From Prochlorococcus sp. AG-463-F15 (lineage in GTDB: Bacteria > Cyanobacteriota > Cyanobacteriia > PCC-6307 > Cyanobiaceae), in assembly GCA_003211755.1 (NCBI GenBank), contig QCRS01000006.1, positions 1 through 35,954 on the forward strand: a DNA stretch of 35,954 bases, written 5' to 3'. Positions 19,959 through 21,674 of this stretch are shown piece by piece (positions within the stretch are counted from its first letter, which is position 1; each line of letters begins with the position of its first letter). A program made the translations under genes and the position numbers. The notes under the pieces were generated by a model. It was not told where the DNA came from and did not search any database. It worked only from the letters and a program-made list of their open reading frames with translations.

Positions 19959-21122
19959 GTGAATGTTCAGCTAGGACGAAACAAAGTTGTTCGTCGGGCC
20001 TATGGCATCGACGAAATCGCCCTTGTTCCAGGGGGGCGCACTGTGGACCCAGAAATCACTGACACCAGCTTGAATATTGGAGGAATTGATTTAGAGATAC
20101 CAATAATTGCAAGTGCAATGGATGGTGTCGTAGATGTTGAAATTGCTGTAGCACTCTCAAAACTTGGTTCTCTGGGCGTGTTGAATCTGGAAGGGGTCCA
20201 AACCCGCTATGAAGATCCATTACCTTTACTAAGAAAAATCGCTTCAACCGATAAAGACGAATTCGTACCTTTAATGCAGGAGATTTATAGCCAGCCAATT
20301 AAAGAAGAACTGATAACAAGACGAATAGAAGAAATTAAGTCTCGTGGAGGAATTGCAGCTGTTAGTGGGACCCCTATAGCAGCAATTAATTTCAGAGAGG
20401 CAATAGCAAAAGCTGGGGCAGATATTTTCTTCGTCCAAGCAACGGTTGTATCAACCGAACACATTGGCCCCTCAAGCAGGGTGAAGCTTGATTTGAATGA
20501 ACTTTGCGAAGAGATGGAGATCCCAGTTGTAATTGGCAATTGTGTGACGTATGAAGTAGCCCTCCAATTAATGCGTGCAGGTGCCGCAGGAATCATGGTT
20601 GGCATAGGCCCAGGGGCAGCATGTACTTCTAGAGGGGTATTAGGTGTTGGGGTCCCTCAAGCAACTGCAGTAGCCGACTGTGCAGCGGCTCGTGATGATT
20701 TCGAAAAAGAAACGGGAGCATATGTCCCAATAATTGCGGATGGAGGGATTGTGACCGGGGGAGATATTTGCAAATGCATAGCTTGTGGTGCTGACGCAGT
20801 AATGATTGGATCACCAATAGCAAGAGCAAAAGAAGCACCTGGCAGAGGATTTCACTGGGGTATGGCCACACCAAGTCCAATACTGCCTAGAGGTACAAGG
20901 ATCAAAGTAGGTTCTACTGGAAGCCTTGAAAGAATTCTCAGAGGTCCTGCTTTATTGGACGATGGAACACACAATCTTCTAGGGGCAATCAAAACCTCAA
21001 TGGGGACGCTTGGCGCACGTACTATCAAAGAAATGCAGCAAGTTGAGGTAGTTGTAGCTCCATCTCTTCTTACCGAAGGCAAGGTTTATCAAAAGGCGCA
21101 ACAACTAGGTATGGGTAAATAG
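19959..21122 (+). CDS. guaB3: GuaB3 family IMP dehydrogenase-related protein
   Basis: A 387-aa member of the IMP dehydrogenase/GMP reductase barrel family. The catalytic loop reads GPGAACTSR with Cys222, and GVGVPQATAV follows. Canonical GuaB is about 490 aa with a pair of CBS domains inserted after the first 90-100 residues; here those are missing and the barrel is continuous. The preceding region matches the GuaB3 class (MNVQLGRNKVVRRAYGIDE). It probably acts in guanine nucleotide metabolism; whether it makes XMP from IMP is not settled by the sequence. GTG 19959 has an AAGG ribosome-binding site 7 bases upstream. Yfr1 and trxA lie just downstream. Confidence 0.87.
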   Translation: MNVQLGRNKVVRRAYGIDEIALVPGGRTVDPEITDTSLNIGGIDLEIPIIASAMDGVVDVEIAVALSKLGSLGVLNLEGVQTRYEDPLPLLRKIASTDKDEFVPLMQEIYSQPIKEELITRRIEEIKSRGGIAAVSGTPIAAINFREAIAKAGADIFFVQATVVSTEHIGPSSRVKLDLNELCEEMEIPVVIGNCVTYEVALQLMRAGAAGIMVGIGPGAACTSRGVLGVGVPQATAVADCAAARDDFEKETGAYVPIIADGGIVTGGDICKCIACGADAVMIGSPIARAKEAPGRGFHWGMATPSPILPRGTRIKVGSTGSLERILRGPALLDDGTHNLLGAIKTSMGTLGARTIKEMQQVEVVVAPSLLTEGKVYQKAQQLGMGK

Positions 21123-21148: not shown

Positions 21149-21178
21149 CTGACTTGCAGAAGTTACAAGCAGTATTAT
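21149..21178 (+). promoter_or_regulatory. putative promoter of yfr1
   Basis: A -35-like CTGACT (21149-21154) and a -10-like TATTAT (21173-21178, 5 of 6 with TATAAT) are separated by 18 bp. This places the start of transcription near 21184-21185, exactly at the first base of the 5' hairpin of Yfr1. Confidence 0.6.
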
Positions 21179-21183
21179 CAAGA

Positions 21184-21243
21184 TGTGGGGGCTTAGGCCC
21201 ACACACTCCTCACACCACCTGCCCGAAGCACTCGGGCTTTTTG
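21184..21243 (+). ncRNA. yfr1: Yfr1 small regulatory RNA
   Basis: Yfr1 is a short trans-acting RNA found in nearly all cyanobacteria. In Prochlorococcus it base-pairs with mRNAs of outer-membrane porins and affects growth under stress. Seen here are a 6-bp 5' stem TGTGGG/CCCACA (21184-21203), then an unpaired centre holding the family signature ACTCCTCACACCAC (21203-21216), then a 3' terminator hairpin. The sequence lies between guaB3 and trxA, the location known for this RNA. Length is about 55-60 nt, as expected. The exact 5' end is inferred from the promoter. Confidence 0.93.
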
Positions 21244-21247
21244 TCTT
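21221..21247 (+). terminator. Rho-independent terminator of Yfr1
   Basis: A 6-bp stem GCCCGA (21221-21226) / TCGGGC (21232-21237) with a 5-base loop, followed by TTTTTGTCTT. It forms the 3' end of Yfr1 and may also stop read-through from guaB3. Confidence 0.9.
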
Positions 21248-21350
21248 CTTTCTTACGCGACCGTCACAGTTCACACAACATAAGGGCACTAAAGCCTTTA
21301 CTCATCAAGGACTGTTGCTAAATTCCCAGGATATAGAGGTCTGTAAAGGA

Positions 21351-21674
21351 ATGTCCAGCGCAGCTGCAGTAACTGATTCATCTTTTGAACAGGAAGTCCT
21401 ACATAGTGACGTCCCTGTACTAGTTGACTTCTGGGCTCCTTGGTGCGGACCATGCAGGATGGTTGCTCCAATTGTCGAAGAGATTTCGAAAGAATTTGAG
21501 GGAAAGATCAAGGTCTTTAAACTCAATACCGATGAGAATCCAAATGTCGCTAGCCAATACGGCATTCGGAGCATCCCTACCTTGATGGTTTTTAAAGGGG
21601 GACAAAAGGTAGATACTGTAGTTGGTGCAGTTCCAAAAGCCACCCTTTCAGGAACCATATCCAAGTATCTCTAA
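21351..21674 (+). CDS. trxA: thioredoxin
   Basis: A 107-aa thioredoxin with the active site WCGPC (Cys32, Cys35) and the cis-proline in RSIPTLMVF. It reduces disulfides in target enzymes; in cyanobacteria the redox-regulated targets include OpcA and Calvin cycle enzymes, so it links functionally to zwf-opcA in this window. I chose ATG 21351 ([12 protein letters not shown]), preceded by GAGGT 12 bases upstream, because the longer open frame beginning at 21183 would run through Yfr1 and its terminator. The RNA therefore sits in the leader region of trxA. Confidence 0.97.

Follow-up and report, generated by a model that had tools for sequence, protein, structure and literature searches.

The locus between guaB3 and trxA in Prochlorococcus sp. 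AG-463-F15 raised the question of whether it carried a small RNA gene of its own and, if so, what the RNA would act upon. We analyzed the whole 35,954-nucleotide stretch of DNA around it (hereafter, the window). Yfr1 is a regulatory RNA of about 56 nucleotides present in nearly all cyanobacteria. The initial annotation had placed a complete copy at this locus, and a covariance search confirmed that identity: the Rfam model RF01116 (Yfr1) matched the forward strand at its full length (positions 1-59 of 59) with 62.1 bits, whereas the gathering score of the family was 38. The E-value computed over the whole window was 3.8e-10, so that the match was far beyond chance. Yfr1 was the only Rfam family matched anywhere in the window, and a search for RNA families around the locus up to E = 5 found no others. 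The proposed position held as well, since TIGR01304 and TIGR01068 matched on either side of the gene; according to these NCBIfam assignments, the order was guaB, yfr1, trxA, and the gap of 228 bases between guaB3 and trxA contained yfr1. The fold of the RNA had a predicted energy of -22.8 kcal/mol with a z-score of -2.2 (RNAfold). The gene was an ordinary, intact copy at its canonical place, and its features are collected in Table 1.

Table 1. Positions of the yfr1 gene, its elements, its neighbors and its predicted porin target (window coordinates unless a contig is named)
Feature	Position	Strand	Basis
guaB3, upstream neighbor of yfr1	19959-21122	+	TIGR01304, 513 bits
TATTAT, -10 element for yfr1	21173-21178	+	6 nt before the Rfam match begins
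yfr1, whole gene	21185-21240	+	RF01116, full model length
5' hairpin, GUGGGGGC-UUAG-GCCCACAC, one G-A mismatch	21185-21204	+	Rfam alignment, RNAfold, pairing in relatives
Core ACTCCTCACACCAC, single-stranded ACUCCUCACAC(CAC), predicted pairing seed	21205-21218	+	Family conservation, folding
Intrinsic terminator, 6-bp stem GCCCGA/UCGGGC and U tail	21221-21244	+	Terminator analysis, RNAfold
Conserved block CGACCGTCACAGTTCACAC upstream of trxA, outside Yfr1	21258-21276	+	Alignment
GTTGCTAAATT, probable -10 region of the trxA promoter	21314-21324	+	Conserved; agrees with RACE start (PMC1242208)
trxA, downstream neighbor	21351-21674	+	TIGR01068; 21351 is the probable true start, conserved in aligned relatives
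Porin gene, protein start MKLFQQLLVAPA, ribosome-binding site GTGTGAGGAAT	L172/L118, contig C41:8213-8247	-	9 bp perfectly complementary to the Yfr1 core

Our main reading, to which we gave a probability of about 95%, was that this is an orthologous picocyanobacterial yfr1 whose RNA, transcribed from its own promoter, would pair through its core with the ribosome-binding sites of porin mRNAs and block their translation. The gene would belong to a marine Prochlorococcus/Synechococcus-family picocyanobacterium; its RNA would start near 21184-21185 and end near 21240 at the intrinsic terminator. The short transcript that had been expected, with a predicted length of about 56 nt, was supported by the length of the RF01116 match and by RACE in relatives. 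For yfr1 at this locus, published Northern and RACE evidence exists in MED4, MIT 9313 and WH 8102 (PMC1242208). The gene, its structure, its locus and its mode of action are already known and in print since 2005; the family, the structure and the guaB-yfr1-trxA order were described in 2005 and 2007 (PMC1242208, PMC2190773). We found above-threshold Yfr1 in 124 of the 149 searched genomes, the source genome included, and in one of them (G077) it lay at 1220973-1221029, exactly the published MIT 9313 coordinates (PMC1242208). The source genome had one copy in an assembly of 1.08 Mb that was 55% complete, so that its copy and target counts were partial.

All the elements described by the initial annotation, with a core between a 5' stem and a terminator, were present in the sequence. 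The 11-nt ACUCCUCACAC at 21205-21215 was unpaired in both the minimum free energy structure and the ensemble (unpaired probability of 0.73-0.98 for the core), and the two hairpins would keep it single-stranded. ACTCCTCACA was found in 68 of 68 tabulated Yfr1-family loci and was absent from one further weak family match outside this table (L084). The terminator described downstream of the core was present: its stem-loop at 21221-21237 was followed by TTTTT and formed the GC-rich 3' hairpin that characterizes RF01116.

In the family fold, the stem of the 5' hairpin had eight positions (seven pairs and one mismatch) under a UUAG tetraloop, which lies within the 5' stem-loop of 6-10 bp, with one mismatch or bulge allowed, that defines the family. 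A 6-bp stem with an 8-nt loop had been proposed earlier. On this sequence the two registers were isoenergetic (-9.2 each), so the 6-bp stem did equally well on energy, but it fitted the relatives more poorly: over a set of 33 distinct, equally long hairpins it formed 78% of the pairs versus 86% for the family register, a comparison that leans towards the latter because the hairpins were chosen by a pattern fixing its outer bases. Because of the family register of the stem, we took the loop to be UUAG rather than GGCTTAGG. Moreover, GGCTTAGG had been considered specific to the present sequence, a claim refuted by four other genomes with the same loop in their 5' hairpins (L003, L012, L016 and L060).

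The promoter suggested directly upstream of Yfr1 was retained in part. Its -10-like TATTAT stood, and the block GCGTTAnnaT around it was conserved in the relatives (53 compared). The -35 proposed with it (CTGACT, 21149) showed no conservation among 53 relatives, and a canonical yfr1 -35 at this position was rejected for lack of a conserved counterpart.

A rival reading is that Yfr1 is a segment of the trxA leader, produced when transcription from guaB3 or from the yfr1 promoter reads through, and that it controls trxA in cis, as a leader or an attenuator. The arrangement invites this idea, as Yfr1 lies upstream of trxA on the same strand with an intrinsic terminator between them, and the association is old, yfr1 being associated with trxA in 27 of 31 genomes (PMC2190773). 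However, RACE in relatives mapped separate starts for the two genes, with trxA starting roughly 100 bp beyond the 3' end of yfr1 (PMC1242208), and trxA has a conserved box that is probably its own -10 element: most of the 68 relatives carried GTTGCTARATT, as a rule some 25-35 nt ahead of the trxA start codon. Its counterpart here, GTTGCTAAATT, is probably the -10 region of trxA, consistent with the start mapped in relatives. Additionally, several cyanobacteria have yfr1 without trxA in the published table (PMC2190773), and guaB-trxA was kept in genomes that had lost Yfr1. We therefore considered a cis-acting leader very unlikely, and Yfr1, which the initial annotation had put inside the trxA leader, probably does not belong to it.

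Another conserved block in the spacer, CGACCGTCACAGTTCACAC, was shared by close relatives and by G077, whose yfr1 has the MIT 9313 coordinates, and was absent from many others. Its GTCACA was present in 29 of 68 relatives, and the block is possibly a regulator site for trxA.

The proposed action of the RNA was approached through its predicted target. One OprB-type porin gene was found in the source genome. In its leader, ttttGTGTGAGGAATctcaATG, the nine bases GTGTGAGGA perfectly complemented the core UCCUCACAC and covered the Shine-Dalgarno sequence. The predicted Yfr1-porin duplex (-16.0 kcal/mol) beat 25 of 25 ORF starts of the window used as background. Across 17 genomes with Yfr1 we compared 37 porin starts, and 33 of them had TGTGAGG at the same place, a site overlapping the Shine-Dalgarno, which has conservation reasons of its own. 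Since the 11-nt core is intact and, in the same genome, nine bases across the ribosome-binding site of the porin complement it perfectly, we infer that Yfr1 most likely silences outer-membrane porin messages: UCCUCACAC would base-pair with GUGUGAGGA in the ribosome-binding sites of MKLFQQLLVAPA-type porin mRNAs, and with other targets, and the pairing at the porin site would block translation. For expression, transcript ends and repression, this reading draws on work on relatives. In Prochlorococcus and Nostoc, published experiments with reporters and mutated cores demonstrated repression through the core motif, and in Prochlorococcus MED4 and Nostoc the core paired with mRNAs, in many cases around the ribosome-binding region, mostly repressing translation. 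We rejected ppa as a target in the source genome, where its starts had no strong complement. The complementary 11-mer, with one mismatch, showed no whole-genome enrichment, being no commoner than the reversed control.

The same target speaks to the idea that yfr1 has decayed or fallen silent here, its sequence remaining while its expression or the need for it has gone. Decay does happen in the family: between guaB and trxA of one genome (G032), we found a remnant (L036, ~2700-2790; G032:C1:1079230-1079286) that scored 17.9 bits, with an intact 11-nt core, which was the only exact copy of the 11-mer in that genome, and with both hairpins broken. Yfr1 was also wholly absent from some lineages. 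In the present copy, however, all the elements were intact, the score was well above the threshold and the porin target site was intact in the source genome, so that a silent relic seemed highly improbable. That a longer trxA coding sequence begins with the conserved stretch had a negligible probability: as noted earlier, a frame open from 21183 to 21674 can indeed be drawn through Yfr1 into trxA, but we took it for a chance extension because only around 11 of the 68 relatives kept the trxA frame open across Yfr1 (counted by reading the locus table). The 56 added residues contributed nothing to the thioredoxin match, which began at residue 64, and the downstream ATG and protein start were conserved. 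It is possible that a gene caller would over-extend trxA here, and the correct annotation is now supplied for a locus that automatic gene calling can miss.

Genomes that lost an intact yfr1 offered a further view of the porin site. In four of them (G017, G046, G071 and G040), guaB adjoined trxA, there was no Yfr1 and the spacers were without the core. Three of these (G017, G046 and G071) carried genes that contain the core, have a terminator downstream and resemble Yfr10, and G040 had one core copy without a clear terminator. Their porin starts, which within one genome are paralogs, carried TGTGAGG in seven of eight cases, and the eighth kept GTGAGG. In contrast, the complementary site was found in none of the three porin starts examined in G032, again paralogs. 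This pattern of retention versus loss would fit a porin site under selection from RNAs that bear the core. We tentatively suggest, with the balance somewhat against it, that the complementarity of the porin ribosome-binding site to the core is maintained by selection for small RNA control and not only for ribosome binding. G032 might be a natural knock-out, where yfr1 decayed with co-loss of the porin target sites, a case represented by a single lineage and one genome of 95% completeness, in which a contig carrying a further core-bearing RNA may be missing. The co-loss may be the only part of these observations that is new. If true, it would provide an evolutionary test of which targets matter where genetics is hard.

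Two related genomes (G015 and G069; L040 and L041) also had no Yfr1, and their guaB-trxA gap of only about 50 bp was too short for it. No OprB match was found in either genome, and both carried core-bearing loci elsewhere.

The source genome itself had a second copy of ACTCCTCACAC (L089, ~1490-1560; G000 contig C10:5995-6065), followed by a GC-rich terminator hairpin. This locus matched no Rfam family, and a similar copy was present in G003 (L090). It appears to be a Yfr10-like small RNA gene, and its RNA could act on the same porin as Yfr1.

Among known systems, the Yfr10 family of Prochlorococcus and Synechococcus has the ACUCCUCACAC core in common with Yfr1, but places it in a loop atop a stem, at a locus that is not conserved (PMC6778093). 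We rejected a Yfr10 identity for 21185-21240, where the core lies between two hairpins and not inside the loop of a stem. The proposed action is analogous to that of MicF-type small RNAs. These enterobacterial RNAs repress porins by pairing at the ribosome-binding region of the mRNA; their sequence is unrelated, and we claim no homology. The closest counterpart is Yfr1 as described by RF01116, which the present gene resembled in its core, two hairpins, terminator, length, guaB-yfr1-trxA order and promoter position, and from which it differed by ordinary variation only, in the 5' stem, the loop and the linker. It adds another intact copy to those known of this well-studied small RNA.
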